Origin: a virus
Length of the DNA: 24,092 bases
Strand: one strand, 5' to 3'
IMG/VR virus record: IMGVR_UViG_3300025853_000645
Span: 1-24,092 of that record
Position numbers and translations under genes: made by a program. Below the pieces are notes generated by a model. The model was not told the DNA's origin, made no database searches, and worked only from the letters and a program-made list of their open reading frames with translations. Shown one piece after another: positions 1 through 17,391 of the stretch (position 1 is the first letter of the stretch; each line of letters opens with the position of its first letter).

Positions 1-2188
1 CCCATGTTGAACTCAGATATGAGCCAGTGCTTATTTCTAAGTCATTGTCAGCACCAAAGATAGCTTTGTCGGTATCGCCAAAAGTAACGTTATTGCCATT
101 AGAGTCTAAATCACCACCAAGTTGCGGCGAAGTATCGTCAACCAAATCCTGCATCGCAGAGTCAGCAGTCGTACCCTGAGCTGCGGTAGCGTAGTCAGCA
201 GAATCAAAGGCTTTAACTTGTGCAAGGTTAGTTACCTCGCTATCCATTAACGCACCGGCAGCTTCTACATTGGTTGCATCTGTTACGTCAGCACTGGCTT
301 CAATGCCAGATAATTTAGTTTGCTCTGCATCCGTAAATGCGTTGGTATCTGCATTAGATTCGTATGCAGTTTTAATTTCACCTGCTGTCTGATCAGCAGT
401 CGCTCCTGCCTCAATACCATCTAGCTTTGCGCCATCTACTGATACATCACGACCATCAACGGTTTCACTACCTGTCATTACGATGTTGCCACCGTTCAGA
501 GTGAAGTCACCTGTAATGGTATCGCCGGTATTTAATATGAACGCATCATCTACGTTAAAGGTAGTACCATCTAATGTAATGTTAGTACCTGCGGTATATA
601 CAGCGGTTTCAGCAATCTGAGTGAAAGTAATATCAGTGGTGCCAAAGGTAATAGTGCCGGATGTATTCATTACATACAGCTCACCTGCACCCGTATTACC
701 TTCCTTTACAAAGTAAGCATCACCTTCGCCAAGAGCGTCTTGATCTGAAGCACCATAGCTATCAGCATCAGTAGCACGAGTCAATACCCACGCAGTAGAG
801 CCATCGCCTACTGTGGTGACGGTGTAGATACCGTTTTGTGTCGCATCAGTTTGCTCATAAATGAGAACACGATCATTGAGTGACAATGCAATGCCATCGA
901 TTGTGATTGCTTCTAATGTGCCCGCATTGGTGAGAGTTGCACCTACACCATCAGTTCCGTTATCATAAGTAACCGTTAAGGCTGTTGGGGATTCAACACG
1001 AACAGGCGTATGGTAGTGAATACCTGCGGCTGCAATTGTATCTACATAAGACTTGGTGGCGGCTTGTAAAGAGCTTGTTGGATCGGCGTTTAGTGTCAAT
1101 GAACCTGTCATTGTACCGCCAGATCGAGCTAAAGCATTATCAGCTGTTGTTCCTTGAGCCGCTGTTGCATAATCAGAAGAGTCAAATGTTTTAACCTGAG
1201 CGAGATTTAACACCTCAAGGTCCATTAAGGCACCTGCGGCTTGTACGTTGGCTGTATCTGTTACATCCGCGTTAGCCTCAATACCGTCTAACTTGCTGCC
1301 ATCAGTTGAAACATTACGTCCATCAACAGTACCTGTTACAGTGATATTTCCGGGAACAGTGAGATTGTCGTTTAATGTAACATCACCTGATGAATCAACA
1401 CTTATCGCCTCAGTGGAGCCTGTTCTAATTTTTACTGATTCGCCTGTTGTGTTGGTGATATAAAAATCTGTAGTTAAAGCATTAGAAAATCCAACCGCCC
1501 CTGCAAGTGTATTTGTTAGGTCTGTAAATTGAATCTCAGCTGTATATAAACCATTAGATTCAGCAAACGTGTCATTTTTAATTTTAATTTTTGGCAGACT
1601 GCCTTGCAAAGTGATGGTGTTTTCTGCTGTAATACTGCCATCTATAACAGCATTACCAGAACTACTAATAAATGAATGCCAAGTACCACTGTCATAGATT
1701 TTTAACAAATTTGACGTGGTGTTAAAATACATAGCTCCATTAATCAGAGCATCCCCGTCATTATCCACTGTAGGGTCAGAAGACTTAGCACCTAGATAGG
1801 TGTCTTGGAATTCATCTAGGATGTCAACGAAATAGACAATAGACGATCCATCGTAATAACCAACCTTGTCATCTGTGAGATTGTACCACAAATCACCTGC
1901 ACTCAGCTCAGCAGGTTGTGTAGCAGCTACGTAGTAGTTAGCTTGGAAAGCAAGCTGTGCAACATCTAAACCACCAATGGACATAGAGGTGGCATCAATG
2001 CTATTTACATTTAAAATATCGTTGTTGTTAAAATCAACGTCATCTTGCAAGCTATTATCTTCACCCACAGGATTGTCACGATAGAGAACTTTGTTGTTCA
2101 ATTCGTCTTCAATCTGTTGGAACTTGTTGTTGATGTCGTTTACAGCCCCCACCAGAGTAGTCAGGTCTGTTATTGTTATTTTAGCCAT
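1..2188 (-). CDS. Tail fibre protein, N-terminal part (3' end outside window)
   Basis: Open on the minus strand for 729 codons from the ATG at 2188 to the left edge without a stop, so the C-terminus is missing. An AAGGA ribosome site lies just upstream of the ATG. Residues about 1-60 match the particle-anchoring N-terminus of T7-gp17-like fibres, with the signature LYRDNP followed by NSLQDDVDFNNNDILNV. The remainder is low-complexity beta-rich sequence: a KSYVDTIAAAGIHYHTPV segment common in phage fibres, DTSPQLGGDLDSNGN, and two long copies of a VDGR..DG.KLDGIEA...DSADYATAAQGTTAD unit (codons from about 288 and from about 577). Such fibres trimerise, attach to the tail and bind the host surface. 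It appears to be the first gene of the leftward late operon, next to the divergent control region. The fibre role is well supported; the receptor is unknown. Confidence 0.85.
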   Translation of the reverse strand, partial: MAKITITDLTTLVGAVNDINNKFQQIEDELNNKVLYRDNPVGEDNSLQDDVDFNNNDILNVNSIDATSMSIGGLDVAQLAFQANYYVAATQPAELSAGDLWYNLTDDKVGYYDGSSIVYFVDILDEFQDTYLGAKSSDPTVDNDGDALINGAMYFNTTSNLLKIYDSGTWHSFISSSGNAVIDGSITAENTITLQGSLPKIKIKNDTFAESNGLYTAEIQFTDLTNTLAGAVGFSNALTTDFYITNTTGESVKIRTGSTEAISVDSSGDVTLNDNLTVPGNITVTGTVDGRNVSTDGSKLDGIEANADVTDTANVQAAGALMDLEVLNLAQVKTFDSSDYATAAQGTTADNALARSGGTMTGSLTLNADPTSSLQAATKSYVDTIAAAGIHYHTPVRVESPTALTVTYDNGTDGVGATLTNAGTLEAITIDGIALSLNDRVLIYEQTDATQNGIYTVTTVGDGSTAWVLTRATDADSYGASDQDALGEGDAYFVKEGNTGAGELYVMNTSGTITFGTTDITFTQIAETAVYTAGTNITLDGTTFNVDDAFILNTGDTITGDFTLNGGNIVMTGSETVDGRDVSVDGAKLDGIEAGATADQTAGEIKTAYESNADTNAFTDAEQTKLSGIEASADVTDATNVEAAGALMDSEVTNLAQVKAFDSADYATAAQGTTADSAMQDLVDDTSPQLGGDLDSNGNNVTFGDTDKAIFGADNDLEISTGSYLSSTW
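151..460 (-). repeat. Tail-fibre internal repeat, copy B (split by an insertion)
   Basis: In-frame second copy starting at codon 577 with VDGRDVSVDGAKLDGIEA. An extra segment (ATADQTAGEIKTAYESNAD...) follows, and the repeat then resumes with ASADVTDATNVEAAGALMD and NLAQVKAFDSADYATAAQG. The extra segment relative to copy A shows how the shaft has lengthened by duplication and insertion. Confidence 0.75.
1132..1327 (-). repeat. Tail-fibre internal repeat, copy A
   Basis: In-frame coding repeat starting at codon 288. It reads VDGRNVSTDGSKLDGIEA, then ADVTDTANVQAAGALMD, then NLAQVKTFDSSDYATAAQG. It is closely similar to a second copy further downstream in the fibre (plus coordinates 151-460). 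It probably forms a repeated shaft unit produced by internal duplication. Confidence 0.8.
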
Positions 2189-2264
2189 GCCTTGTCCTTG
2201 GAAACTGAAAGCAATCAGTAGATTGTATATATATAATATATATAAATATTATAATATTTAAATA

Positions 2265-2295
2265 TATTGTTTTTCTCTAAAAAAGAAAAACAATA
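2265..2295. other. AT-rich inverted repeat in the tail-fibre leader
   Basis: A 12-bp stem (TATTGTTTTTCT paired with AGAAAAACAATA) closes a 7-base loop. It lies between the leftward promoter (2345-2373) and the tail-fibre ATG, so it would be in the 5' untranslated leader. It could be an mRNA stability or translation element. Function unknown. Confidence 0.5.
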
Positions 2296-2344
2296 AATAA
2301 TTATTATAATAATTATAATTTAAATTATTATACTCTATATAAAT

Positions 2345-2373
2345 AAGATAACAGGTAAATTACAATCTGTCAA
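2345..2373 (-). promoter_or_regulatory. Leftward sigma70-like promoter for the tail-fibre/late operon
   Basis: On the minus strand the -35 is TTGACA (2373-2368), the spacer is exactly 17 bp, and the -10 is TATCTT (2350-2345; four of six consensus bases). It faces the tail-fibre gene and would give a leader of about 150 nt. The perfect -35 and optimal spacing make it a good candidate, though whether it is early or late is not visible. Confidence 0.6.
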
Positions 2374-2526
2374 CACTTTTTTCCCAATATCCCAAAATCC
2401 CATGATTTCTAGCAGATTTTTTTTAGTTGCAATGCATTATGAATGAACACCCGACACCCCCTGTGTACCCCAACAGCCGTCTGCCAGTAAATCGGACGAC
2501 CGTCCTATATGGCAATGTCCATCAGC

Positions 2527-3256
2527 ATATTAGTATATTCGCATATTCTAATATACTATCATCATTAGCATATTATAATATTCTAATATTCTTATGAACA
2601 CCAGTATTAGAATCTGCTAATATTCTAAATTAGCATATCAGTATATTCTAATATTTGTATGTTAGTGTTCACTAACTTACTAATATGGTGTAATGCTAAT
2701 ACTCTAATATTCGCACTGGCTAATATAAGCATTCCCTAATATAAACATTTGATTATATTAGTGTTTTATAATATTATTATATTGACCTGCGGTCGGCAGT
2801 TAGTTAGTAGTTACTAATATTATTATATAATCAATTACTAATATAAAGGTATATTAGTATATGGTGATATTCTAATGTAATTGTCTATAAGAATTTGCTA
2901 ATATTCTGATATTCTAATATGATTGTGGTGTATTAGAACACACTAATATAGGGTTATAATTGGTGTATTAGTATTTGCTTATATGCTAATTGGCATGGTT
3001 TTTGACTATCCACAGGTTATTAACAGCCTAATTTAGTGTTTGCTAATGTTCTAATATGGAGCCTTGTAATCGATTCTAAGCCGTTTTTTCTCAAAAAATA
3101 GGGGGGTGTAGGGTTTGGTATTACTTTTCCGAGAAGTCGCTAAACTAACAGGTTATCCACAGATTTATTCACATGTGGATAAGTTATTCACATTTTGTGG
3201 ATAACTTTTACATACCTTATATATACATGTCAGGGTATATTAGCATTCTCTAATAT
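2527..3256. repeat. CTAATAT / ATATTAG short-repeat array (iteron-like)
   Basis: CTAATAT starts at 2548, 2583, 2617, 2648, 2680, 2704, 2720, 2736, 2814, 2838, 2898, 2914, 2943, 3051 and 3250. The inverse ATATTAG starts at 2527, 2755, 2851 and 3237. Many one-mismatch variants lie between (for example GTATTAG, CTAATGT, CTAATAC). Some copies are spaced exactly 16 bp (2704/2720/2736; 2898/2914) and others about 31-35 bp (2548 to 2680). Only sporadic copies were noticed in the coding regions. It is most likely a multi-site protein-binding array for initiation, partition or repression. Confidence 0.8.
3153..3204. promoter_or_regulatory. Cluster of five DnaA-box matches
   Basis: Nine-mers matching TTATNCACA: TTATCCACA at 3153-3161 (+), TTATTCACA at 3165-3173 (+), TTATCCACA on the minus strand at 3174-3182, TTATTCACA at 3184-3192 (+), and TTATCCACA on the minus strand at 3196-3204. 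A one-mismatch box (CTATCCACA) lies at 3006-3014. Three are the exact strong R-box of E. coli oriC. This density in 52 bp is characteristic of chromosomal and plasmid origins. DnaA binding in this phage is inferred from the sequence. Confidence 0.75.
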
Positions 3257-3301
3257 AAAATTTATTTTAGGGTCATAAAAACATTCAGTGCAAATTGCCC
3301 C

Positions 3302-3330
3302 TTGACAATCCCGAAACCCTCTTTTATATT
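3302..3330 (+). promoter_or_regulatory. Rightward early promoter P1
   Basis: The -35 is TTGACA (3302-3307), the spacer is 17 bp, and the -10 is TATATT (3325-3330; five of six). It lies about 55 bp upstream of the first rightward gene, as expected of a host sigma70 early promoter. Confidence 0.75.
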
Positions 3331-3343
3331 TATGGCCATGGAC

Positions 3344-3358
3344 GGGGCACGTCGCCCC
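3344..3358 (+). other. GGGGC hairpin in the early leader
   Basis: GGGGC, five-base loop ACGTC, GCCCC. It would be the first structure in the transcript from P1 (3302-3330). It is one of five GGGGC...GCCCC hairpins between 3.3 and 6.8 kb. No U-tract follows, so it is not a classical terminator. Confidence 0.55.
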
Positions 3359-3372
3359 TGTTTAGAATATAA

Positions 3373-3388
3373 GGAAACACTAATATGA
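3373..3388 (+). promoter_or_regulatory. Ribosome site and start, copy 1 of an exact 16-bp repeat
   Basis: GGAAACACTAATATGA combines a GGA ribosome site, one CTAATAT repeat unit and the ATG of the first gene. An identical 16-mer recurs in frame at 3487-3502. Part of the CTAATAT unit is the start codon itself, so a protein bound to this motif could also affect expression here. Confidence 0.6.
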
Positions 3389-3678
3389 ACACTAAATACC
3401 CGGACCTAAGCAATACCTTCTTTTATGATGCGTACTGGTTTAACTTCCAAATGCGTGATAACTACAGCGCACCATCTACTCCATTAGGAAACACTAATAT
3501 GAGGACCTACTACTTTTTATTTGAACTAATTGACGGTAAATACCATTTCGCTTTTGGTGATTACAATAAAGACCTTGTAAAAGATGAGGCGGCATGCCTA
3601 GACAACAAAACCAAATTAGTGCGCGGTTGGGATGAAGAAACCGACATTAACGAAATTCTAGCAGACTTAAATAAGTAA
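3385..3678 (+). CDS. Early hypothetical protein, 97 aa
   Basis: First gene of the rightward early block, behind P1. No family recognised. The sequence is rich in aromatic residues (TFFYDAYWFNF, TYYFLFEL, YHFAFGDY) with an acidic C-terminus (RGWDEETDINEILADL), suggesting a small globular alpha/beta protein. The ATG at 3385 has a GGAAAC ribosome site. The same 16-bp start context recurs at codon 39 (ATG 3499), which would give a 59-aa product starting MRTYYFLFEL. Either or both starts may be used. Being first from the origin-proximal promoter, it is probably an immediate-early product. Confidence 0.7.
   Translation: MNTKYPDLSNTFFYDAYWFNFQMRDNYSAPSTPLGNTNMRTYYFLFELIDGKYHFAFGDYNKDLVKDEAACLDNKTKLVRGWDEETDINEILADLNK
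3487..3502 (+). repeat. Internal copy 2 of the 16-bp start context
   Basis: Exact repeat of GGAAACACTAATATGA (copy 1 at 3373-3388), inside the first gene and in the same frame, so its ATG at 3499 is a possible internal start at codon 39. It suggests either a nested short isoform or a 5' extension by duplication. Confidence 0.6.
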
Positions 3679-3694
3679 ATTAGGAGATACTAAA

Positions 3695-3979
3695 ATGGCT
3701 AAAAATATCCGAATCACTAAAGCTAACCAAATCGCAGTAAATGAGATTATCAGCGTTGATAAAGAAATGAGACAATTCGAAGATTGGCGCGACAATGCGC
3801 GAGAGCGTGGTGATGAGAAACTTGCTGAGCTCTGGCAGGGTCACTATAAATCAGAGTTACGTACATGGTCCGCTATGATTAACTTGCTCGCAAAAATGAA
3901 CAACCTTAGTTTTACCGATATGGTGATGTCAGATAATTATCACACTATGCAAGATATCGCAGACGCAAACCTAGATTAA
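3695..3979 (+). CDS. Early hypothetical protein, 94 aa, predicted helical
   Basis: Good AGGAG site before the ATG. No family recognised. The composition (ITKANQIAVNEIISVDKEMRQFEDWRDNARERGDEKLAELW...) suggests a mostly alpha-helical, charged protein without transmembrane segment or cysteine. It lies 16 bp behind the first gene and ends just before promoter P2, so it belongs to the first early transcript. Confidence 0.7.
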   Translation: MAKNIRITKANQIAVNEIISVDKEMRQFEDWRDNARERGDEKLAELWQGHYKSELRTWSAMINLLAKMNNLSFTDMVMSDNYHTMQDIADANLD

Positions 3980-3982
3980 CCA

Positions 3983-4011
3983 TTGACAGGGGCAGAAATG
4001 CCCCTTACAAT
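3983..4011 (+). promoter_or_regulatory. Early promoter P2 with a hairpin filling its spacer
   Basis: TTGACA (3983-3988), 17-bp spacer (3989-4005), TACAAT (4006-4011). The spacer is almost entirely an inverted repeat: GGGGCA, GAAA tetraloop, TGCCCC. As RNA from upstream transcription this would be a stable GNRA-loop hairpin that could end or pause transcripts of the preceding gene. As DNA it could be an operator between -35 and -10. The same design recurs at 6730-6758. Confidence 0.75.
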
Positions 4012-4037
4012 AAACTTACTTTCTAACTCAAAAGAGG

Positions 4038-4049
4038 CATTTAAAAATG
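4038..4049 (+). repeat. Start-proximal motif CATTTAAAAATG, copy 1
   Basis: A 12-bp string ending in the ATG of the ArdC/papain gene. It recurs exactly at 6782-6793 and 6943-6954, each time ending in a start codon and preceded by a GGA/GAGG ribosome site. It may be a conserved translation-start cassette. Confidence 0.6.
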
Positions 4050-4736
4050 TATAAGAATTTTCTTACAGGTATTGAATACACCAACAGCAATTGGGAAACC
4101 TTAGCAGAATCAGGGTTTACTAATCCTAACTTCCTAACATTCAAGCAAGCGCAAACAGCGGGCTTGAAAATCAAAAAAGGTTCAAAGGGTATCGAGCTAA
4201 AGCGCGTTGTTATCAAAAAACAGAAAGATAAAAACGGGGTTGAGGTTGAGAAAAAACTAATCAAAAAGTTTTATGTTTTCAACCTAGAGCAGACAGAAAA
4301 GTTTGAGGAAAAGCCGGTTGAGGTTGAGCACGTTTACCCTAAGCCCGCACCAGAAACAATCACTTTCGAGCACTGCGAAAAAGAAGCTATTGATATGGGC
4401 GAGGCAAACGATTGCACAGTAAAAGCCCTAGCCATTGCCGGAAATGTAGCTTATAAGAAAGCCCACGACTATATGCGCCAAGCGGGACGCAGAATGCGCC
4501 GAGGATTGCACACTGGAGCCATTGAAAAAGGCTTTAAACTAGCGGGCTTTAAGCTTGTAAAGGTTAAGCATACAGGCAAAACAGCGACAACAATCACGAA
4601 AGATTGCGCCAAATCAAAGCGTTATGTTGCTTACACCCGAAACCATATTTTAGCAATCACTAATGGACAGGTACAGGACTGGACAGAAAATCGTCGCCAC
4701 CGTATCGAAACATTATTCGAAGTAGTAAAAGCATAA
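4047..4736 (+). CDS. ArdC-N domain fused to a papain-like cysteine peptidase domain
   Basis: Start ATG 4047 with an AGAGG site. Residues about 20-90 resemble the ArdC N-terminal ssDNA-binding domain: NFLTFKQAQTAGLKIKKGSKG (about 28-48), then KKFYVFNLEQTEKF (73-86). Residues about 108-229 resemble the papain-like domain of small phage proteins, with NDCTVKALAIA (Cys123 at a helix start), RYVAYTRNHILAI (His200) and GQVQDW (Asp211), a plausible Cys-His-Asp triad. Classical ArdC proteins join this N-domain to a zinc metallopeptidase; here a cysteine-peptidase-like domain replaces it. ArdC-N domains occur in antirestriction proteins and in phage or plasmid polyvalent proteins delivered early. A counter-defence or host-protein-processing role is inferred from domains and early position behind P2. 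Activity is not shown. Confidence 0.65.
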   Translation: MYKNFLTGIEYTNSNWETLAESGFTNPNFLTFKQAQTAGLKIKKGSKGIELKRVVIKKQKDKNGVEVEKKLIKKFYVFNLEQTEKFEEKPVEVEHVYPKPAPETITFEHCEKEAIDMGEANDCTVKALAIAGNVAYKKAHDYMRQAGRRMRRGLHTGAIEKGFKLAGFKLVKVKHTGKTATTITKDCAKSKRYVAYTRNHILAITNGQVQDWTENRRHRIETLFEVVKA

Positions 4737-4742
4737 TTAAAC

Positions 4743-4760
4743 GGGGGCAGCAATGCCCCC
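4743..4760 (+). other. GGGGGCA hairpin with GNRA loop between genes
   Basis: GGGGGCA, loop GCAA, TGCCCCC. It falls between the ArdC/papain gene and the next gene. No U-run follows, so it is an inefficient terminator at best. It may protect or separate mRNAs. It belongs to the GGGGC hairpin family of this region. Confidence 0.6.
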
Positions 4761-4779
4761 ATAAATGAGGATTAATAAA

Positions 4780-5061
4780 ATGAAATTAGCAGATATTGAA
4801 AAAATTGTTTTTGCAAGTAAAAATGAAATTGGTTTTGCCCCTGAAGCGATTGATGGTGGATATAGTGAGCGCCCAGTTTCTCATTATGAAATTTATGTTG
4901 ACGATTACAGTAGCACAAACACAAAATATATCCCTAGATTTATTAGTGTTTTTGATTGTTATGATGGTTGGGATTCTATGGATTATGAGGTAGGTGATGG
5001 CAAATATGATACCTACGCAGAAGCGTTATTTGCTTGCTATCTTGAAATTAAATGTAGTTAA
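4780..5061 (+). CDS. Early hypothetical acidic protein, 93 aa
   Basis: The start is placed at ATG 4780 (MKLADIEK), which has AGGA nine bases upstream; an in-frame ATG at 4765 lacks a site and overlaps the hairpin. No family recognised. Tyrosine- and aspartate-rich (YEIYVDDYSS, VFDCYDGWDSMDYEVGDGKYDTY), strongly acidic, soluble. Last gene of the first early block, directly before the terminator at 5077-5102. Confidence 0.7.
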   Translation: MKLADIEKIVFASKNEIGFAPEAIDGGYSERPVSHYEIYVDDYSSTNTKYIPRFISVFDCYDGWDSMDYEVGDGKYDTYAEALFACYLEIKCS

Positions 5062-5397
5062 TAATTAAATTCTAATATAGGGGCATAAGCCCCTATTTTT
5101 TTGTTTGCGTATATTAGAATATTCTAATATAATAATATACTATCATAATACTATCACAAATTAGCATTTGCTTATATTAGAATTTCCTTATATACTAATG
5201 CTGAGTATATTAGCATATTATTATATACCAATATGCCAATACAATCTATATTAGAATCTACTAATATGCTAACATATAAATAATTTATGTGAGGTATAAA
5301 TATTTTCGTATAGTAATGTAGGGTTTTCCCCTATATACCACAACCTAGAAATATATATACTTATAGTCACAAACTAACTGAACAGGAGCGTAAGCGA
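5062..5397. repeat. Noncoding 336-bp spacer with second CTAATAT/ATATTAG island
   Basis: No gene. CTAATAT starts at 5072, 5124 and 5261; ATATTAG starts at 5111, 5174, 5207 and 5248. At 5111-5130 the units form a perfect 20-bp palindrome, ATATTAGAATATTCTAATAT. The spacer also holds the terminator at 5077-5102, a small TAGGG/CCCTA hairpin (5319-5333) and AT-rich sequence that may include the promoter for the following mini-genes. With the array at 2527-3256 it brackets the first early gene block. Confidence 0.75.
5077..5102 (+). terminator. Rho-independent terminator of the first early block
   Basis: Stem ATAGGGGC (5077-5084), loop ATAA, GCCCCTAT (5089-5096), followed directly by six T residues. 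Canonical intrinsic terminator 15 bp after the stop at 5061. Overlaps the last bases of a CTAATAT unit. Confidence 0.85.
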
Positions 5398-5598
5398 ATG
5401 ATTGCATATAGATATCACTTATACGTTAAACGTATGGATTATGACGAGACCATTAACTGGGAACACGTCGCGACATTTCACAAAGCGAAAGGTGCTCGGA
5501 AATATATGAGAGCTAACAATAACTTTAATTATAGAATGGATACCGAATATACAAATGGAGATATTGACTCAATAGAATTGAACAGAGGAGACTATTAA
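5398..5598 (+). CDS. Hypothetical mini-protein, 66 aa
   Basis: AGGAG at 5384-5388, nine bases before the ATG. No family recognised. The sequence (YRYHLYVKRMDYDETINWEHVATFHKAKGARKYMRANNNF...) looks like a small beta-alpha fold with many aromatics. First gene of the second early block; its leader shares ACAAACTAAC with the leader behind promoter P3. Confidence 0.65.
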   Translation: MIAYRYHLYVKRMDYDETINWEHVATFHKAKGARKYMRANNNFNYRMDTEYTNGDIDSIELNRGDY

Positions 5599-5600
5599 AA

Positions 5601-5795
5601 ATGCGTGAAGTTAAAAGAGAATTACATATTGACAGCTTGCTAGGTTTTGAGGTTTATCAGGAATTTAATTCATCATGTAACGTGGAAAATCTATGGTATG
5701 ACAGACTAGCAAAAAATAATTCAGTGTTAACGGCTTGCCTTGTTTATAAATACAAGCATAATGGCAAGGTTATTCAAGTGATTAACTTAAAATAA
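5601..5795 (+). CDS. Hypothetical mini-protein, 64 aa
   Basis: Starts 2 bp after the previous stop with an AGAGGAG site inside the preceding gene, so translation is probably coupled. Not recognised. Ends in a short basic beta-like segment (VYKYKHNGKVIQVINLK). Two internal cysteines. No membrane segment. Confidence 0.65.
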   Translation: MREVKRELHIDSLLGFEVYQEFNSSCNVENLWYDRLAKNNSVLTACLVYKYKHNGKVIQVINLK

Positions 5796-5807
5796 AGGGT
5801 ACACCCA

Positions 5808-5978
5808 ATGAAATTAGATTCAATCAGTTATGCGGCGTTTATTGATGGTCGCGACAATGGTACAATCAAAGATACTGAACAAGAGATTGTGCGTATCGTA
5901 CAGGAACAAGAGTTAGTAAGTTATTGCAGCGAGTATGGCTGCTACACTTTCGACTATATGGATTTATGCGAGGATTAA
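5808..5978 (+). CDS. Hypothetical acidic mini-protein, 56 aa
   Basis: ATG 5808 to TAA 5978. An AGGG site lies upstream. The product begins MKLDSISYAAFIDGRDNG and ends SEYGCYTFDYMDLCED; three cysteines, strongly acidic, not recognised. Supported by tight packing (12 bp after one gene, 3 bp before the next) and by the same orientation as its neighbours. Confidence 0.6.
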   Translation: MKLDSISYAAFIDGRDNGTIKDTEQEIVRIVQEQELVSYCSEYGCYTFDYMDLCED

Positions 5979-5981
5979 TAA

Positions 5982-6140
5982 ATGAATCACTTAGAACAAA
6001 ATGATAAAATTAGGGCTTACGTTAAACAGGCAAGGGAATCAGGCGCACCCGCAAACCTAATCACTAAATATGAAATTTACGCTTGTTTTTCTGATGATGG
6101 TGCGGCATTAAAAACTTTTTACGAATGGTTGAGGAGCTAA
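5982..6140 (+). CDS. Hypothetical mini-protein, 52 aa
   Basis: ATG 5982 with GAGG in the end of the previous gene. The product (MNHLEQNDKIRAYVKQ..., ending LKTFYEWLRS) looks helical and is not recognised. The next gene follows after 4 bp. Confidence 0.6.
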   Translation: MNHLEQNDKIRAYVKQARESGAPANLITKYEIYACFSDDGAALKTFYEWLRS

Positions 6141-6144
6141 GAAA

Positions 6145-6366
6145 ATGAACTTAAAAGAATTTACTCAGGCTTTATATAAAGAATTAGCGTTTTATGGTTT
6201 TACTACTAAAGATTTTCCAAGTAGCGGACAGCTAGAGTTAATCTATCGCTATACTAAGGGAGATATCGGTGAAGCTTACGGGGTATGCTGCGATATAAAC
6301 GCGGGTTATAGCGTTGAAGAAGCTTTAGATTTAGATAACAATTATCTTGTATCACAATATAGATAA
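6145..6366 (+). CDS. Hypothetical mini-protein, 73 aa
   Basis: GGAG seven bases before the ATG, inside the previous gene's end. Mixed helical protein (MNLKEFTQALYKELAFYGFTT..., GDIGEAYGVCCDINAGYSVEEAL) with a vicinal Cys-Cys pair at about residues 48-49. Not recognised. Part of the co-oriented mini-gene run. Confidence 0.65.
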   Translation: MNLKEFTQALYKELAFYGFTTKDFPSSGQLELIYRYTKGDIGEAYGVCCDINAGYSVEEALDLDNNYLVSQYR

Positions 6367-6376
6367 GGGAAAAACA

Positions 6377-6556
6377 ATGACGCATTCAGAATATTTAGAA
6401 ACACTACGCCCAATTATTCCAGAAGGTGAACGACTACGCTTCCAAGGGTTACAAGGTGAAACTTGCATTGCTTGGATTGATCAAGGTGAGGTAAACTATC
6501 GGGAATTCTGGTCAGCATACGCAGCAAACAAATGGTTAAAGGATAATGCAAAATGA
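6377..6556 (+). CDS. Hypothetical mini-protein, 59 aa
   Basis: Start chosen at ATG 6377 (MTHSEYLETLRPIIPEG), which has a GGGA site; an in-frame ATG at 6347 overlaps the previous gene and has no site. Ends FWSAYAANKWLKDNAK, a probable C-terminal helix. Not recognised. Confidence 0.65.
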   Translation: MTHSEYLETLRPIIPEGERLRFQGLQGETCIAWIDQGEVNYREFWSAYAANKWLKDNAK

Positions 6557-6726
6557 GCAAGATTTTAAACTATAATCCAAATGAATTATTAGCAGATATT
6601 CAGAAACGTATTAATCAAATTGTTTCTAATAACGAGCAAAACAAATTTAAAACAGAGCTAGAGGGTCTTTACGATTCAAAGAAAGAGTTAATCGATTTAA
6701 TTTTATTAAGAAATAATTTCAAATAA
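6553..6726 (+). CDS. Hypothetical helical mini-protein, 57 aa
   Basis: ATGA overlap with the preceding stop, typical of translational coupling. The sequence (NELLADIQKRINQIVSNNEQ..., LYDSKKELIDLILLRNNF) predicts two amphipathic helices, possibly a coiled coil. Not recognised. Its stop is 3 bp before the -35 of promoter P3, whose hairpin may also end this transcript. Confidence 0.6.
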   Translation: MSKILNYNPNELLADIQKRINQIVSNNEQNKFKTELEGLYDSKKELIDLILLRNNFK

Positions 6727-6729
6727 CTA

Positions 6730-6758
6730 TTGACAGGGGCCGCATTGCCCCTTAGAAT
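6730..6758 (+). promoter_or_regulatory. Early promoter P3 with a hairpin filling its spacer
   Basis: TTGACA (6730-6735), 17-bp spacer (6736-6752) containing GGGGC, six-base loop, GCCCC, then TAGAAT (6753-6758). Same geometry as P2 (3983-4011), and the downstream leaders are also related (AATAAAC, CTAAC, AAAAG, then CATTTAAAAATG). The two promoter-leader cassettes are evidently copies of one element. Confidence 0.75.
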
Positions 6759-6790
6759 AAACCTACAAACTAACAAAAGGACATTTAAAA

Positions 6791-6937
6791 ATGGCAAAGT
6801 ATAGAGATATATTATTTGATTCAGTAAATGAAGGTCTAATTTCAGAACGTGATCTACTGAATGAAATCCTTCAGTATTTATCTGAAAATGATTGCGAAGA
6901 TATTGCGCACACCTTAGAGCTAACAGAATTATTTTAA
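6791..6937 (+). CDS. Hypothetical acidic mini-protein, 48 aa
   Basis: First gene behind P3, with an AGGA site and the CATTTAAAAATG start motif. The product (MAKYRDILFDSVNEGLISERDL..., ENDCEDIAHTLELTELF) is acidic and helical. Not recognised. Kept because of the promoter, ribosome site and exact start motif shared with the ArdC-domain gene. Confidence 0.6.
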   Translation: MAKYRDILFDSVNEGLISERDLLNEILQYLSENDCEDIAHTLELTELF

Positions 6938-6951
6938 TGGAGCATTTAAAA

Positions 6952-7182
6952 ATGAAACTAACACCAATCGCATCAAACATGACAGAAGTAAAAACAGCAG
7001 GTGGAAGCGTTGTATTATTCAGCTACTCGACACCAGTAGCAGCATTGCTACCTAGTGGGCAATACTGGCGCACCAAAAAATGGTATAGTGTAACCACAAC
7101 ACGCCACATCAACAAATGGCTAAAAGGCGTATTAGCTAACGTTGAAGAAGTAGAACAGGAACAAATTGAAGGTTTAGTTTAA
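6952..7182 (+). CDS. Conserved small phage protein (DUF8033-like, tentative), 76 aa
   Basis: Start at ATG 6952, with GGAG and the CATTTAAAAATG motif; an in-frame ATG at 6892 would overlap the previous gene. The sequence has the pattern of a widespread small phage family: SNMTEV, then GGSVVLFSYSTPVAALLPSG, W..TKKWYSVTTTRHINKWL. I associate this with DUF8033, but from memory only. Function unknown. Probable compact beta-sheet protein with an acidic tail. Confidence 0.65.
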   Translation: MKLTPIASNMTEVKTAGGSVVLFSYSTPVAALLPSGQYWRTKKWYSVTTTRHINKWLKGVLANVEEVEQEQIEGLV

Positions 7183-7192
7183 GGGGTATAAC

Positions 7193-7525
7193 ATGAAAGA
7201 AAATACGGCATTTCATTTATTGAGAGAGGCAGCAAACGCGGGTTATACATTCACGGTTGCAGGTCTTGAGGGATGGGAAGAAGGCATTATTGATTATGAA
7301 GGTAGCGATTGGCAAAAAGCTTTTGACGCTACCAAGTATGAAGGCGCAGCTAACGTATGGATTAAAAAAGATGGTCAGAAAGAATGGGCGTTAATCATTC
7401 ACCTAAATGACCCTGACGAAAGCCTAAGTGATTGCACGGCAAACGGATGGATTGATCGTTGGTGTGACATAACAGACTTCGGTCAAAAATACAAGCCTTT
7501 ATCTTGGAACAGCATAGAGGTATAA
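7193..7525 (+). CDS. Hypothetical protein, 110 aa
   Basis: GGGG site before the ATG. Not recognised. Tryptophan-rich (eight Trp) and acidic: AGLEGWEEGIIDYEGSDWQKAF, ANVWIKKDGQKEWALIIHL, GWIDRWCDITDF. Probably a soluble alpha/beta protein. Its stop codon lies within a perfect TATAAT (7521-7526). Confidence 0.65.
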   Translation: MKENTAFHLLREAANAGYTFTVAGLEGWEEGIIDYEGSDWQKAFDATKYEGAANVWIKKDGQKEWALIIHLNDPDESLSDCTANGWIDRWCDITDFGQKYKPLSWNSIEV

Positions 7526-7550
7526 TACTATCATAGCGCACGGATGCGCT
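7521..7550 (+). promoter_or_regulatory. Possible promoter -10 with leader hairpin
   Basis: A perfect TATAAT (7521-7526) overlaps the preceding stop codon, but no good -35 lies 16-18 bp upstream, so the promoter is tentative. A clear hairpin follows at 7535-7550: AGCGCA, loop CGGA, TGCGCT. This is the only gap over 40 bp between 6.8 and 9.2 kb, which supports a regulatory role. Confidence 0.4.
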
Positions 7551-7570
7551 AACATTTAGGAGTAAATCAA

Positions 7571-7753
7571 ATGACATTAACAGACAAAGAACGAAAGCAA
7601 TTGCAACATGAATTATATATGGACGATTGCAAACCACATTTAATTATGGCATTAAGCGATGAAGAATTATTACGGATTGTGGAGAAAAACAGAGCATTCC
7701 ATAACCCGTCACCATTACCAGATGAATACTGGCACTCAATGAATAAGGATTGA
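7571..7753 (+). CDS. Hypothetical mini-protein, 60 aa
   Basis: Preceded by a leader hairpin and a TTAGGAG site. The sequence (MTLTDKERKQLQHELYMDDCKPHLIMALSDEELLRIVEKN...) looks helical, and PSPLPDEYWHSMNKD forms a proline-rich tail. Not recognised. Confidence 0.65.
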   Translation: MTLTDKERKQLQHELYMDDCKPHLIMALSDEELLRIVEKNRAFHNPSPLPDEYWHSMNKD

Positions 7754-7756
7754 TTA

Positions 7757-7936: not shown

Positions 7937-7938
7937 TT

Positions 7939-8652: not shown

Positions 8653-8654
8653 AC

Positions 8655-9357: not shown

Positions 9358-9365
9358 GGAAAATT

Positions 9366-9563: not shown

Positions 9564-9566
9564 TGC

Positions 9567-9797
9567 ATGCAAATCAACAAGTACGTGTTTAAAGTAGCAA
9601 CAACCTATAATGGTGATTGGTACGAAGAACAGGAGATTGTGCAGTATGAGGAAAGCGAAGCAGCGGCACGAGCAAGATTGCAGCCAGAGCTAGAGCGTAT
9701 CGTTTTGTCAGGACACGCACTAGAGGATGTTAAACTGATTGAAGAGATTGACTTAAATGAGATTCCAGATACAGGAAATGAAGGAGTTGGTTGCTGA
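9567..9797 (+). CDS. Hypothetical acidic protein, 76 aa
   Basis: GGGAG eight bases before ATG 9567. 17 acidic against 6 basic residues; an N-terminal strand (YVFKVATTYNGDWYEEQEIV) followed by an alanine/glutamate-rich helix (EESEAAARARLQPELERIV). Not recognised. Its 3' end overlaps the primase gene by 41 bp. Confidence 0.65.
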   Translation: MQINKYVFKVATTYNGDWYEEQEIVQYEESEAAARARLQPELERIVLSGHALEDVKLIEEIDLNEIPDTGNEGVGC

Positions 9798-10560
9798 TTT
9801 AGAAATTGCAGAAGGTGAAACATCACATATTCACCATTGCAAAGAAGGACACAACAACGACAGACTTTACATCTCAAACAAAGAAGATTGTTATTTGTTC
9901 TATTGTCACCATTGTGGAAGCAAGGGTAAATTGGACAAGCATCTTAAACACTACCACAGGCATGTTACACCAAAGGCTAAGCCTAAGTATGTGTCAGCTA
10001 ATCCGCCGGATGACGCTGTTTACAAGACATCACAGTTTCCGGTAAAAGCAATTGCATGGTTGGCAAAAGCTAAACTCAATCTAACTCAAATCGAACAGCA
10101 AGGTATGTGGTGGAGTGAGAAGTTACAGCGTGTAGGGATTCCAGTGGTGGCAAATGGCTATCAGGGTTTCATCGCTAGAAACATAGATGCAGATGGAGCT
10201 AAGTATTTAGTTAAACGGAAAGACGATCAGAAGTTTATCTTTAGACGTAGACCAAAGAAAGACAGTAGGACAGTGGTGATTGTAGAGGATGCTCTTTCTT
10301 GTATCAGGTTGAGCTATGCAGGTTATAACGCAGTAGCATTGCAAGGCACATCACTAACTGATACAATGCTCTCTTACTTACTAGATCATTACGACAATTT
10401 TATTGTATGGCTTGATGATGACAAGCCAGAAGTTAAGATAAAGCAAGTGAAGCTAAAACAGGAATTAGATTTATTTGGCAAGGTGTCAATGCGTAAGACA
10501 CCAAATGACCCCAAGGAGTATACAGCAGATGAGCTTAGACTTATTGTCGGTAATGTCTGA
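9757..10560 (+). CDS. DNA primase (zinc finger plus TOPRIM), T7 gp4 N-terminal type
   Basis: Makes RNA primers for lagging-strand synthesis. An N-terminal Cys/His zinc site is visible (C28, H32, C50-HH-C53). A TOPRIM domain follows: VVIVEDALS with catalytic Glu177, ALQGTSLTD, and WLDDDKPE with D220/D222. It ends at 267 residues without a helicase domain; the helicase is the next, overlapping gene. T7 gp4 carries both in one chain, so the functions are separated here. ATG 9757 has an AGAG-like site; an in-frame ATG at 9778 is an alternative. Confident for a TOPRIM primase. Confidence 0.85.
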   Translation: MRFQIQEMKELVADLEIAEGETSHIHHCKEGHNNDRLYISNKEDCYLFYCHHCGSKGKLDKHLKHYHRHVTPKAKPKYVSANPPDDAVYKTSQFPVKAIAWLAKAKLNLTQIEQQGMWWSEKLQRVGIPVVANGYQGFIARNIDADGAKYLVKRKDDQKFIFRRRPKKDSRTVVIVEDALSCIRLSYAGYNAVALQGTSLTDTMLSYLLDHYDNFIVWLDDDKPEVKIKQVKLKQELDLFGKVSMRKTPNDPKEYTADELRLIVGNV

Positions 10561-11782
10561 TCGTAGTAATTACGACAGATTTAGCCGTTTCATTAAACCT
10601 AACACTCTACCGAAAGAAGCTAAGACATTGATGGCTGATATTGGTGAGTGGTTTAAAGAACATCCGAACAGTGAATATATTGATTGGAGTATGTTCGATG
10701 AGTGGTTTCGTATTGTTCGTCACAGTAATTACAAAGAGGAGCAATTCAAGACATTTGATCGTATCATTGAACGCTTAGATGGTTATGAGCCTACAGAGCT
10801 ACACGATGCAATCATTCAGAAGTATATCGCACAGGACTATTGCAAACGTATTGCCGATGTCGCTCTACAGGGAGCCGAAGGCGGGACGATTGACATGTCA
10901 GATATATCTACCCTAGTGGATGGATACAATGACGAGTCACAACGCGCCCTAGAGCTTGAGAAGTATATTGTTGGTAATGGTATTAAAGGACTTGTCGAAG
11001 AGGTAATGGATCATGGTTATGATTGGCGGCTTGATTGCCTTAATCGCAGCATTGGTAATCTTCGCAAAGGTAAGTTGGTATGCTTCGCTGCGCGTCCCAA
11101 CACAGGCAAGACGACGTGGCTTGCATCAGAAGCAACATTCATTGCAGGACAGCTACCGGAAGACAAGGATGTAATATGGTTTAACAACGAGGAAGCAGGT
11201 GCAGATGTTCGCATGCGTATCTATCAGGCAGCACTGAAGAAAGACGATCAGTGGATTAGAAATAACATTGATGATGTTGAGCGTTTGTATGGTGAAGCTG
11301 TGAACGGTGGTATTAACAAGATCAAGGTGATTGATCTAGCTACCCTATCAACTAAGGATGCAGAGGAAATCTTACGCAACTACAATGCGGGCTTGATTAT
11401 CTTTGACCAGTTATGGAAGGTACATGGTTTTGAGAAGTCACAGAGTGATACAGCTAGACTAGGCAGTATCTTCCAGTGGGCGCGTGAGATTAGTAAACAG
11501 TATGCGCCAGTGATTACGGTGCATCAGGTTAAGACAGAAGGCGAAGGTGTGAAGCAACTAGATCAGTCTATGCTTTACATGTCAGGCACAATTGTTCAAG
11601 GTGAGGTGGACAGTCTATTGATGATGGGTAGATCACACAGTGACGAAGACAGTAACAAGCGTTACATTCATGTTGCTAAGAACAAAGGTGCTTATGGTAA
11701 TAAAGTGGATAAGAAGCTGAACGAGGCTACTTTTGTAACGAACATTCACCCTGACATCGCTACATTTACTTGGATGGGATAA
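10529..11782 (+). CDS. Replicative DNA helicase (RecA/DnaB fold, T7 gp4 C-terminal type)
   Basis: Hexameric 5'-3' helicase unwinding the fork. The start is set at ATG 10529, with AAGGAG ten bases upstream; it overlaps primase by 32 bp. Walker A is ARPNTGKTT (188-196), Walker B is GLIIFDQ (288-294), and VHQVK (331-335) is the conserved His/Gln motif. An N-terminal helical region of about 150 residues precedes the motor and could bind primase. The 417-aa length suits a helicase-only protein. Overlap with primase suggests coupled synthesis and a two-protein primosome. Confidence 0.9.
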   Translation: MSLDLLSVMSDRSNYDRFSRFIKPNTLPKEAKTLMADIGEWFKEHPNSEYIDWSMFDEWFRIVRHSNYKEEQFKTFDRIIERLDGYEPTELHDAIIQKYIAQDYCKRIADVALQGAEGGTIDMSDISTLVDGYNDESQRALELEKYIVGNGIKGLVEEVMDHGYDWRLDCLNRSIGNLRKGKLVCFAARPNTGKTTWLASEATFIAGQLPEDKDVIWFNNEEAGADVRMRIYQAALKKDDQWIRNNIDDVERLYGEAVNGGINKIKVIDLATLSTKDAEEILRNYNAGLIIFDQLWKVHGFEKSQSDTARLGSIFQWAREISKQYAPVITVHQVKTEGEGVKQLDQSMLYMSGTIVQGEVDSLLMMGRSHSDEDSNKRYIHVAKNKGAYGNKVDKKLNEATFVTNIHPDIATFTWMG

Positions 11783-11928
11783 TGTTTTTTGAAATTTATC
11801 AGATTGTGATTTTGTTAGGCGTGTTCGGATACGGACTACGATATGTATATCAACAGGGCTATTATCAAGCATGTTATGAAGTGGCTAATAAAATCATCAT
11901 AGTGACAGCAGAGGATGAAGATGAATAG
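11782..11928 (+). CDS. Predicted 48-aa membrane mini-protein
   Basis: Its ATG shares the last A of the helicase stop, and its 3' end overlaps the start of the polymerase gene, so it is held by both neighbours. One hydrophobic segment (IYQIVILLGVFGYGL, about residues 5-19) followed by a tyrosine-rich stretch and an acidic tail (TAEDEDE). Not recognised. A membrane anchor within a replication operon is noteworthy, but the function is unknown. Confidence 0.55.
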   Translation: MFFEIYQIVILLGVFGYGLRYVYQQGYYQACYEVANKIIIVTAEDEDE

Positions 11929-13084
11929 GTTATTGTTTCTCGACACAGAGACAACTATCTACAACACAGGAGATCAGAGCGTTGGAAACTTTAGTGCAAA
12001 CCCACACCATGCTGATAACCGTATTGTTTATACTGGTTGGGCATTTGATAATCGACAAGTACACTGGTTGAAGGGTGTACCTGACTTCTTTGAGAATCCG
12101 CCGCAAGCTTTGATTTGTCAGAACATTGCATTCGACTTGCTGTACTTGTTACATGACAAGCAGTATGGCGATGATTGGCGAGAGTGGACACGCAAAGGAT
12201 TCATTTGGGATACGATGTTGGCGGAATACCTAATTACAGGACAGGACACAACACGAGGTCATTTGTCATTAGACTACATGTCACAGAAGTATGGTGGCAC
12301 GTTGAAAGACAGCCGTATGAAAGAATACTGGGAGAACGGTGTGTCTACTGAGGACATTCCAGAAGAAGAAATTGTACCTTATCTGATTGGTGACGTGGAA
12401 AATTTACGCATCATCTATAATGCACAGCGTAAAATTGTAGATGAGATGGGAATGTTTGAATTGGTGGTTAGTCAGATGCAAGCTAGACTTGCTACGATTA
12501 TGATGGAGTATAATGGCATGAGCTTTGACCTGAAGTTAGCACACGAAGAGAAGCTTAAACTACTACCACAGCACGAGGCAGTGACACAAGAGGTCGTGGA
12601 ACTGATGGCTAGACGTACAGGATGTGATGTTGAAGAACTGAATCCAAACTCAACACAACAGCTATCAGCTGTATTGTTCGGAACTGAGTTTAAGGTGAAG
12701 CGTGATATGCCTGTAGTAGATGAGGAAGGTAATCCTGTTATTTACAAGTCAGGTAAACGTAAGGGTGAGCAAAAGACAAAGAAACAGGACATCATCATTC
12801 AACCTGAAGGTATCTTTCGACATACAAAGAAATTGAATGATCGTGGCATTCATCCTGTAGGTGACGATGTGCTACGTAAACTTGAGCATCCTATCCTTTC
12901 AAAGGTGTTAAAGATGCGGGAACTGACTAAACAGATTAGTACGTATTTCGATGGCTACTCTAATCTTGTATGGTCAGACGGATTGATACATGGCAACCTA
13001 AACCATTGTCAGACAGCAACAGGTAGATTGAGCAGCAGCAATCCCAATCTACAGAATATTAGTAATAAGGAGAGCGAGGCATGA
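11921..13084 (+). CDS. Family-A DNA polymerase, N-terminal polypeptide (3'-5' exonuclease, thumb, TGR motif)
   Basis: Start at ATG 11921 (MNRLLFLDTETT) with AGAGG six bases upstream. The proofreading domain has all three motifs: D8-x-E10, NIAFD (D72) and YLIGD (Y154/D158). The thumb follows, then TATGRLSSSNPNLQNI (365-380), normally just before palm motif A. The chain stops seven residues later (SNKESEA), with TGA overlapping the next ATG. It therefore lacks motifs A, B and C, which are in a separate gene at 13916-14797. The two parts total 680 residues, close to T7 gp5 (704). The break falls in a loop before IKKCF, suggesting a two-subunit polymerase rather than decay. Confidence 0.88.
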   Translation: MNRLLFLDTETTIYNTGDQSVGNFSANPHHADNRIVYTGWAFDNRQVHWLKGVPDFFENPPQALICQNIAFDLLYLLHDKQYGDDWREWTRKGFIWDTMLAEYLITGQDTTRGHLSLDYMSQKYGGTLKDSRMKEYWENGVSTEDIPEEEIVPYLIGDVENLRIIYNAQRKIVDEMGMFELVVSQMQARLATIMMEYNGMSFDLKLAHEEKLKLLPQHEAVTQEVVELMARRTGCDVEELNPNSTQQLSAVLFGTEFKVKRDMPVVDEEGNPVIYKSGKRKGEQKTKKQDIIIQPEGIFRHTKKLNDRGIHPVGDDVLRKLEHPILSKVLKMRELTKQISTYFDGYSNLVWSDGLIHGNLNHCQTATGRLSSSNPNLQNISNKESEA

Positions 13085-13389
13085 AGTGCAAAGCATGCGG
13101 TGCGACAGTGAATACGTCTCGTTGGATGTATTTTGCAGATGAATCAGAACAGCCTAGACCTAAGAAGAAACAGACCGAGGAGTTATGCTCTCTCTGTTTA
13201 GGTGAGGCTAAGACAGCATACTATGAAATGTTTGACAAAGACCCGCAAGTCATTGAATTTGAATGTAAAAACATGTGGAAAGAGGGGTTAAAACAGGAAG
13301 GTGATCCATTATACATCTTGACAAACGGTGATGAAGATGCTACCTTATTAATAGACCTAGAGAACTTCTCTCTCGGAACTGAGGAATAA
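13081..13389 (+). CDS. Small zinc-finger-like protein, 102 aa, inside the split polymerase locus
   Basis: ATGA overlap with the end of the polymerase N-part. Two CxxC pairs (MKCKACGA and ELCSLCLGEA) form a probable zinc-binding module like those of small phage MKC.AC proteins; the C-terminal half is acidic. No nuclease motif (no HNH, GIY-YIG or LAGLIDADG) is visible, so it is not an obvious homing endonuclease. Function unknown; it might bind DNA or polymerase. Confidence 0.7.
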   Translation: MKCKACGATVNTSRWMYFADESEQPRPKKKQTEELCSLCLGEAKTAYYEMFDKDPQVIEFECKNMWKEGLKQEGDPLYILTNGDEDATLLIDLENFSLGTEE

Positions 13390-13390
13390 C

Positions 13391-13624
13391 ATGATTAAAC
13401 AGGGAATCATTAAAAGAATTCATGTGAATCAGCACAACATTCGTCATAATAGCAAACATGATGACAAGCTTCCTGTACTTACTGTGAAAACAAGTAAAGA
13501 AAATATCAAGTGTGATAAAGTTGTTATTCATGGTAGCAGTGAAATTGTGTACTCACCAGATAAGCCATTAGCATGCGGTGCTAAGGTATGGATTGAAACC
13601 ACAGCAGAGGTTGATACGGAATGA
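13391..13624 (+). CDS. Conserved phage hypothetical protein, 77 aa
   Basis: Sequence pattern KRIHVNQHNIRHNSK, LPVLTVKTSKEN, VYSPDKPLACGAKVWIETTA. I recognise this as a recurring phage family of unknown function from memory; no enzymatic motif is visible. Beta-rich, with two cysteines. Starts 1 bp after the zinc-finger gene stop and ends in an ATGA overlap. Second of three genes between the polymerase halves. Confidence 0.7.
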   Translation: MIKQGIIKRIHVNQHNIRHNSKHDDKLPVLTVKTSKENIKCDKVVIHGSSEIVYSPDKPLACGAKVWIETTAEVDTE

Positions 13625-13926
13625 TGAAGAATAAATGGGGTGTTGATAGGTTTGATCTTGAAACTGCTATGATGAAAGTAGCTATGACACAAGATGACAT
13701 CATGCTAATAGCAGAAACAGCGTACAATGACGATTGGAATGCAGACAAGACTATGAATGCTTGGATTGGATTAGCACACTTACTAGAAGCTCGCACACTT
13801 AAACAAGAAGTGATATTTTCTAAGCTATTCGAGATAGATGGATACGAACCTCATAATTGGGATGAGGATAGGATGGATATTATCGGCAGGAACGGTAACA
13901 ACGGCGAACATTACAATGACGATTAA
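13621..13926 (+). CDS. Hypothetical acidic protein, 101 aa, inside the split polymerase locus
   Basis: Starts within an ATGATG overlapping the previous stop. Helical, acidic: RFDLETAMMKVAMTQDDIMLIAETAYNDDW, WIGLAHLLEARTLKQEVIFSKLF, ending in an Asn/Asp/Gly-rich tail. Not recognised. Its last 11 bp overlap the polymerase C-part start (ATG 13916), so it and the catalytic half are probably translated together. Confidence 0.65.
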   Translation: MMKNKWGVDRFDLETAMMKVAMTQDDIMLIAETAYNDDWNADKTMNAWIGLAHLLEARTLKQEVIFSKLFEIDGYEPHNWDEDRMDIIGRNGNNGEHYNDD

Positions 13927-14797
13927 TATCAAGAAATGTTTTAAGTCTAGGTGGACTGACGGCTTTATTGTAGAAGCCGACTTTTCGCAGCTTGAGGTGG
14001 TAGGAGCTGCAATTGTATCAGGTGACAAGAACATGAAGCAGGATTTGCTAGATGGTATTGACAGCCACAGCCAATCAGCAGCATGGCTTAATCCTAAATA
14101 CAGCTACGAGGAAATCTTAGCAGGGTATAAGGCAGAGGATAGCTTCTTCACAAAGCTACGTAAGAATGCCAAAGGACCTCGCTTTGAACTACAATATGGT
14201 GCAGGTGCTAAATCTATTGCAGAGAATAACAACCTGACTAAAGATGAGGCACAGGGATTCATTGATAGATATTATGAACGCTATTCAATGTTGAAAGACT
14301 TTCAGAACAAAGTAATGCAGGAGGTAGATGAGAGCTTACAGCCAATTGATGAGTATTACAGTGGACACCAAGTCCAACAAGGAACATATAAATCTATAAC
14401 GGGTAGACGCTACACATTTAAACAACAGAAAGCCCCTAAGTTTTTACAAGACAGAGGTGTGATGTTGTCAATTAGCCCTACTCAAATTGCAAACTATCCG
14501 ATGCAAGGCTTTGCAACAGGTGACATCGTGCCAGAGACATTAGGCAGACTACACAGAGCAATATCAGCAGACGATCAGTTATGGAATAAGTGCTTACCAA
14601 TTAATACTGTACATGACAGTGTGATATTTGATGTACATGAGAGTGTATTGAAACGTGCAGGACTAATCATCCGAGACACAATGCAAGCAGCTCCTAAGTG
14701 GATGAAGACACGATTTGGTGTTGACATTGACTTACCATTGAATGTTGATGTAGAGTATGGTAAAGATTGGAACAGCCTTACCAAACTAGAGGTATAG
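13916..14797 (+). CDS. Family-A DNA polymerase, C-terminal polypeptide (palm/fingers)
   Basis: Carries the polymerase active site. Motif A is VEADFSQLE (Asp22). The O-helix is RKNAKGPRFELQYG, with R82, K86, F90 and Y94 lining up with T7 R518, K522, Y526 and Y530. Motif C is VHDSV (D234). F90 at the T7 Y526 position matches E. coli Pol I and other enzymes that discriminate against dideoxynucleotides. Homology begins at IKKCF, directly following where the N-part stops. Start taken as ATG 13916 (MTINIKKCF), with only a weak GGCGA site; an in-frame ATG at 13838 would add 26 non-family residues. It must assemble with the N-part for a full polymerase. Confidence 0.85.
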   Translation: MTINIKKCFKSRWTDGFIVEADFSQLEVVGAAIVSGDKNMKQDLLDGIDSHSQSAAWLNPKYSYEEILAGYKAEDSFFTKLRKNAKGPRFELQYGAGAKSIAENNNLTKDEAQGFIDRYYERYSMLKDFQNKVMQEVDESLQPIDEYYSGHQVQQGTYKSITGRRYTFKQQKAPKFLQDRGVMLSISPTQIANYPMQGFATGDIVPETLGRLHRAISADDQLWNKCLPINTVHDSVIFDVHESVLKRAGLIIRDTMQAAPKWMKTRFGVDIDLPLNVDVEYGKDWNSLTKLEV

Positions 14798-14798
14798 A

Positions 14799-17390: not shown

Positions 17391-17391
17391 T

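Follow-up and report, generated by a model that had tools for sequence, protein, structure and literature searches.

The non-coding junction between the late and early genes of this phage raises the question of what a dense cluster of binding sites for the bacterial initiator DnaA does in a genome that encodes its own polymerase, primase and helicase. The window, by which we mean the whole 24,092-nucleotide stretch analysed (positions 1 to 24,092 of IMG/VR record IMGVR_UViG_3300025853_000645), has late genes running leftward up to 2188, early and replication genes running rightward from 3385 to 20317, and more late genes running leftward from about 20.6 kb. Between the fibre gene and the early genes lies a non-coding gap of 1.2 kb, which contains five exact DnaA boxes, two one-mismatch boxes, a CTAATAT/ATATTAG array and a promoter:

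2..2188, − strand: tail-fibre gene, the first leftward late gene; its N-terminal domain is common to two uncultivated relatives (L094, L100)
2226..2332: two A/T-only tracts of 43 and 41 bp (2226–2268, 2292–2332), between the tail-fibre gene and the array
2345..2373, − strand: promoter-like TTGACA-17-TATCTT, 10/12, with TG before the second hexamer, reading toward the tail-fibre gene
2524..3256: CTAATAT/ATATTAG heptamer array, iteron-like, on either side of the DnaA boxes
3006..3025, + strand: two one-mismatch boxes, CTATCCACA (3006) and TTATTAACA (3017), 11 bp apart
3153..3204: core array of five exact DnaA boxes (TTATNCACA), start-to-start distances 12, 9, 10 and 12 bp
3302..3330, + strand: sigma-70-type promoter TTGACA-17-TATATT, 11/12, preceding the first early ORF and among the top two scorers of the promoter scan
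3385..5061, + strand: first early ORFs, 3385–3678, 3695–3979, 4047–4736 (ArdC N-terminal domain) and 4765–5061
5072..5267: second CTAATAT cluster, seven heptamers, after the first early cassette
9757..10560, + strand: DNA primase (TOPRIM)
10475..11782, + strand: DnaB/gp4-like replicative helicase, separate from the primase
11915..14797, + strand: family A DNA polymerase in two ORFs (11915–13084 and 13838–14797) with small ORFs between

A preliminary description of this DNA had noted five DnaA nine-mers within 52 bp, three of them identical, and exact matches bear this out: TTATNCACA boxes start at 3153 (+), 3165 (+), 3174 (−), 3184 (+) and 3196 (−), with TTATCCACA present three times and TTATTCACA twice. 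Their orientation, which had been called alternating, is so only in part, the order being + + − + −. Variation among the five core boxes is confined to the degenerate position of the DnaA consensus, TTWTNCACA (PMC5835720). Elsewhere in the 24 kb, exact TTATNCACA occurs only at 17661, 19915 and 22129, and the number of matches expected per whole window is 1.98, with a maximum of 6 in 100 shuffles. The fullest 52-bp stretch in dinucleotide shuffles held two boxes (20,000 shuffles of 2200–3400 and 600 of the whole window), and a chance origin of the cluster is rejected on these counts. At least five copies in 60 bp are reached in the window by 14 of 205,498 one-gap nine-mer motifs; twelve of these consist of A and T only and come from low-complexity DNA. 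TTATNCACA and its reverse complement make up the remaining pair, so that outside the A/T words no other motif reaches this density.

The boxes are also regularly phased. Core box centres lie at 0, 1.14, 2.0, 2.95 and 4.1 helical turns, and the degenerate boxes at 3006 and 3017, which sit within a 22-nt imperfect direct repeat partnered with 3148–3169, lie at −14.0 and −12.95 turns from the first core box; all seven share one helical register. As in origins of the oriC type, consensus boxes are thus clustered above chance and placed on one helical face, and the 52-bp cluster is very probably a genuine binding array for host DnaA that is under selection.

The polymerase, primase and helicase genes that had been attributed to the phage were all found, along with a separate 3'-5' exonuclease at 16584–17390. 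A split DNA polymerase A with small ORFs between its parts is known for MEP401-type phages (PMC10580990). The helicase has 40–41% identity to its counterpart in Vibrio phage ICP2, and for the C-terminal half of the polymerase the identity is 51–57% to ICP2 and VP41s3, both of which are recorded as Zobellviridae; the gene order, with its split late and early blocks, matches ICP2, VpV262 and RIO-1. Judged by its genes, the phage is a marine-type, Zobellviridae-like podophage without an RNA polymerase (RNAP), its replication proteins being closest to that family, an assignment that rests on the replication module and gene order, with terminase, portal and capsid lying outside the 24-kb fragment. 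No phage RNAP (PF00940) was found in the window or in the eight Zobellviridae records searched (8/8), by a search that did detect this family in CRP-361 and MedPE-SWcel-C56. The single-subunit RNAP that serves as the criterion for T7-type Autographiviridae was therefore not seen in the window, which is a fragment and yet holds the complete rightward early module (3385–20317).

A T7-type replication start needs a phage RNA polymerase. Since none was found and the closest relatives lack one, a T7-like RNAP-primed start would be unavailable here, and the premise of a T7-type phage from which the preliminary description had set out gives way to replication proteins closest to RNAP-less Zobellviridae. 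Its remark that no loader was seen holds: neither a DnaA nor a loader domain was recognised in the scanned ORFs of the window, a fragment in which many small ORFs belong to no family, and no lambda O/P-like gene was recognised there. At 20621–20896 (−) the window encodes a small basic protein (phrog_7595) with relatives in 15 of the 120 listed DnaA-cluster loci, a raw count without a background rate, which we did not weigh as evidence.

The repeat array that had been reported beside the boxes is real, 28 of the 30 CTAATAT heptamers in the window starting between 2527 and 5261; the A/T-only DNA reported there fits more loosely, its tracts (2226–2268, 2292–2332) lying 820–930 bp from the boxes. 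The heptamers at 2527–3500 and 5072–5267 lie around and partly inside the first early cassette (ORFs 3385–5061), and some overlap start codons (3380–3386, 3494–3500). They may be binding sites of a phage regulator or initiator. The A/T-only tracts at 2226–2332 are a possible unwinding region. The longest A/T-only run of the window, 71 bp at 9287–9357, lies 6 kb from the boxes in the gap before the primase genes; it has no DnaA boxes and is another candidate for the site of unwinding. High A/T content close to arrays is nonspecific, with a mean of 34% of the other gaps equally A/T-rich across 17 loci including the window, and because other gaps do as well we dropped an A/T-rich unwinding region as specific evidence. 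The GC-skew minimum near 3 kb was likewise dropped as an origin sign: on either side of the window the skew follows the direction of the genes, and the minimum is therefore not independent evidence of an origin.

Contigs of the same species end before the boxes, L131 (99.96% identical) covering the junction to 2692 and L003 beginning at 6911; the interval 2693–6910, boxes included, is represented by one contig. Searches with exact 20-mers and early-gene proteins found no further copy of the array, and the exact box arrangement is absent from the viral contigs searched. A relaxed form of it occurs in eight genome contigs, four of them Lysinibacillus and the others scattered, which point to no host, and in three plasmid records of little meaning.

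Among named phages, the box cluster is absent from all 13 scanned, eight of them Zobellviridae (the set comprised ICP2, VP41s3, Saratov-12, MEP401, MEP402, VpV262, SIO1, RIO-1, HMO-2011, HTVC115P, CRP-361, MedPE-SWcel-C56 and 1.204.O), with at most one exact box in the best 120 bp of each, and for this reason the array is no fixed feature or core origin of the family. ICP2, VP41s3, MEP401/402, VpV262, RIO-1 and SIO1, all Zobellviridae, resemble the window phage in replication genes, gene order and the failure to find an RNAP, but lack the DnaA array that it carries. The preliminary description had held that relatives lacking the boxes would refute its reading, and here the outcome is split, named relatives being without boxes and several uncultivated relatives having them in the same gap.

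A three-box pattern taken to viral contigs matched at least 120 stretches, against 3 for the reversed pattern. Gene comparison with named genomes identified ICP2/MEP401-like genes in four contigs among the 120 listed box-cluster loci, and all four (4/4) carry exact boxes between leftward late and rightward early genes, in a late/early gap that makes up the share of the examined contig sequence given with each:

L094 (33%): terminase 58% identical to that of ICP2; boxes flanked by rightward early DNA and by a fibre gene that shares a homologous N-terminal domain with the fibre gene of the window
L100 (27%): fibre N-terminus followed by an A/T-rich tract, six exact boxes and CobT/CobS-type genes (early in ICP2)
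L108 (4%): terminase genes on one side of the boxes, early and CobS/T-like genes on the other
L036 (9%): small-terminase-like gene, boxes, then MEP401-like early genes

The boxes of L100, L108 and L036 follow orders and spacings that differ from those of the window, and the arrays of all four contigs are unrelated to it in sequence; what is conserved is therefore the place and not the sequence. The same gap placement recurs in a second lineage, whose replication or packaging genes are SIO1/HTVC115P/HMO-2011-like (L040, L071, L025, L123 and L101 among others). Because distant uncultivated relatives keep an array in the same place, the window array is probably a site borrowed from the host for starting replication or for early control. 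In L100, an A/T-rich tract at 5150–5300, between fibre gene and array, recalls the layout at 2226–3204 of the window. L040, a phage with a T7-like primase-helicase and polymerase, has ten exact and three one-mismatch boxes in about 250 bp (1936–2128), between terminase and early genes.

In viral contigs at large, the listed clusters show 85 distinct spacing patterns, in which 121 of 365 successive box distances are 11–12 bp, with a second peak at 22 bp. In a family of 11 contigs with four boxes at fixed spacing and eight distinct rows over the cluster (L020, L031, L042, L068, L069, L076, L077, L105, L116, L121 and L126), none of 36 box columns varies, against 16 of 50 spacer columns (p=1e-4). 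Of the classifiable clusters among the matches listed, 33 of 75 are found in divergent gaps; for the remaining gaps of these loci the figure is 77 of 486 (p=1.6e-7). The 75 exclude 26 clusters inside ORFs of at least 80 aa and 19 at contig edges, and include near-duplicate contigs. Most of the 120 listed contigs are fragments, and DNA polymerase A was found in 10 of the 120. Over the first 50 of these loci, a DnaA domain passed the cut-off in none and an integrase was found in one, which rules out contamination by host chromosomes and indicates that the contigs are not mis-called chromosomal origins. No phage RNAP was found in 50 box-cluster records (0/50), in a search that had no positive among its own records, the same family being detected in CRP-361 and MedPE-SWcel-C56 by the search described above. 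Intergenic, unannotated clusters also occur in two large cultivated phages outside the Zobellviridae-like group, Vibrio phage VH7D (L186; seven exact boxes in about 110 bp, 3913–4021) and Lactococcus phage WRP3 (L185; four exact boxes in about 90 bp, 4002–4092), which are convenient bench models.

With moderate confidence, we propose that the array at 3153–3204 is part of the phage replication origin and is bound by host DnaA. In the mechanism that we infer, host DnaA would oligomerise on the in-register boxes, and the oligomer would strain and open nearby A/T-rich DNA, possibly assisted by host transcription that begins at the early promoter (3302); helicase and primase encoded by the phage would then take over on the melted DNA without a dedicated loader. 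T7 gp4 loads without a separate loader, and self-loading of this kind by the DnaB/gp4-like helicase would account for no loader being recognised. On the best reading of its use, the array would serve to open the origin, to time early transcription, or both.

The nearest rival to an origin is a transcription switch, in which DnaA at 3153–3204 would tune two divergent promoters, the early one at 3302 and the late one at 2345–2373, without any origin being present. Such a switch would make use of the strong sigma-70-like promoter that starts 98 bp downstream of the array, it agrees with the enrichment of box clusters in divergent gaps, and the CTAATAT array suggests that a phage regulator binds here too; lambda offers a parallel, as DnaA footprints two DnaA-box-like sites close to pO and activation of the lambda origin is tied to transcription (PMC3985674). 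However, a distance of 98 bp is long for DnaA to touch RNA polymerase directly, and promoter predictions in the region are no commoner than in shuffled DNA (19 promoter-like sites in the scan against 18.1 in shuffles), and we regard a pure switch as unlikely. Replicated phage genomes might instead titrate or inactivate host DnaA in the manner of E. coli datA, halting new host rounds. With its two consensus and four one-misfit boxes, datA is a strong titrator of DnaA (PMC5835720), compared with five consensus and two misfit boxes in the window, and the patchy presence of the array fits an accessory trait. A single incoming genome nevertheless brings five boxes against the 307 consensus boxes of the E. 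coli chromosome (PMC5835720), and on that count a decoy, which the preliminary description had put forward, is weak at the onset of infection and could not act before the phage has replicated. Placement at the late/early junction would also be needless for a decoy, yet the arrays sit there; host stopping by this route appears improbable, and less likely than an origin.

Still less probable is a stop or anchor for DNA entry like the T5 injection stop signal, in which boxes, repeats and palindromes would hold the incoming genome. These podoviruses are not known to have a two-step entry, which counts against it. In PMC13250531 the T5 signal is said to comprise repeats and inverted repeats along with palindromes and DnaA boxes, all of which the window gap has, and the terminal repeats of the Zobellviridae VpV262 and RIO-1 lie in the same gap, so that this gap may enter first and a T5-type entry signal is a live rival. 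Unlike the dense window array, however, the 1-kb T5 signal has one exact and four one-mismatch boxes (AY543070). We consider it very improbable that the locus is no protein site at all, being a terminator or structural hairpin with DnaA-box-like arms or a product of chance. The + strand does fold strongly (−23.3 kcal/mol, z −6.8), but every one of the five arms fits the DnaA consensus and variation is limited to its degenerate base, boxes one and two point the same way, no terminator was flagged at the array by the scan, and L100, L108 and L036 have their boxes in other orders and spacings. The strong fold is explained by box orientation, and a hairpin or terminator was rejected as the source of the array. 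No structured RNA or tRNA was found.

Returning to the origin, we suggest more tentatively, at less than even confidence, that RNAP-less phages with a phage-encoded T7/ICP2-like replisome repeatedly place oriC-like DnaA arrays at the late/early junction, replacing an RNAP-primed start by the host initiator, with direct hand-over to the phage helicase without a DnaC-type loader, and that the sequence of these arrays turns over with their place kept across Zobellviridae-like and HMO-2011-like lineages. DnaA boxes in phages were known already, as isolated cases. The literature covered, whose scope left out most subscription papers and all preprints, gave no description of their position-conserved use in RNAP-less phages with their own replisome, of such arrays in Zobellviridae or at a late/early junction that is conserved, or of how RNAP-less podophages with T7-like replisomes start replication. 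A position-conserved DnaA array is a concrete, testable candidate for that start. If the proposal is true, replication of an aquatic phage group would depend on the host cell-cycle initiator, and this initiator would be coupled to a phage helicase without a known loader.

Several known systems resemble the window in part. Pseudomonas phage vB_PseuGesM_254 is likewise a lytic phage, with an origin predicted by Ori-Finder that includes DnaA boxes; in the available part of its description (PMC11512268) this is a prediction on a different phage, without comparative or positional evidence. Like the window gap, the T5 injection stop signal combines DnaA boxes with palindromes and repeats in non-coding DNA (PMC13250531; AY543070). 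Only one of its boxes is exact, and T5 is a very different phage with a very different mode of entry. A titration or inactivation locus of the datA type is marked also by DnaA-ATP hydrolysis. E. coli datA itself is alike in being a small, dense DnaA-binding locus, and it requires an IHF site between its boxes (PMC5835720, in the part available). At lambda ori/pO, DnaA-box-like sites lie beside a promoter near the phage origin, as in the window, but lambda carries a pair of such sites, encodes an initiator (O) and a loader (P) and uses the host DnaB, whereas the window has five exact boxes and a phage helicase (PMC3985674, in part). From bacterial oriC the window differs in belonging to a phage that itself encodes helicase, primase and polymerase, with no dnaA gene and no loader recognised; in both, a non-coding gap contains several consensus DnaA boxes that keep helical register.
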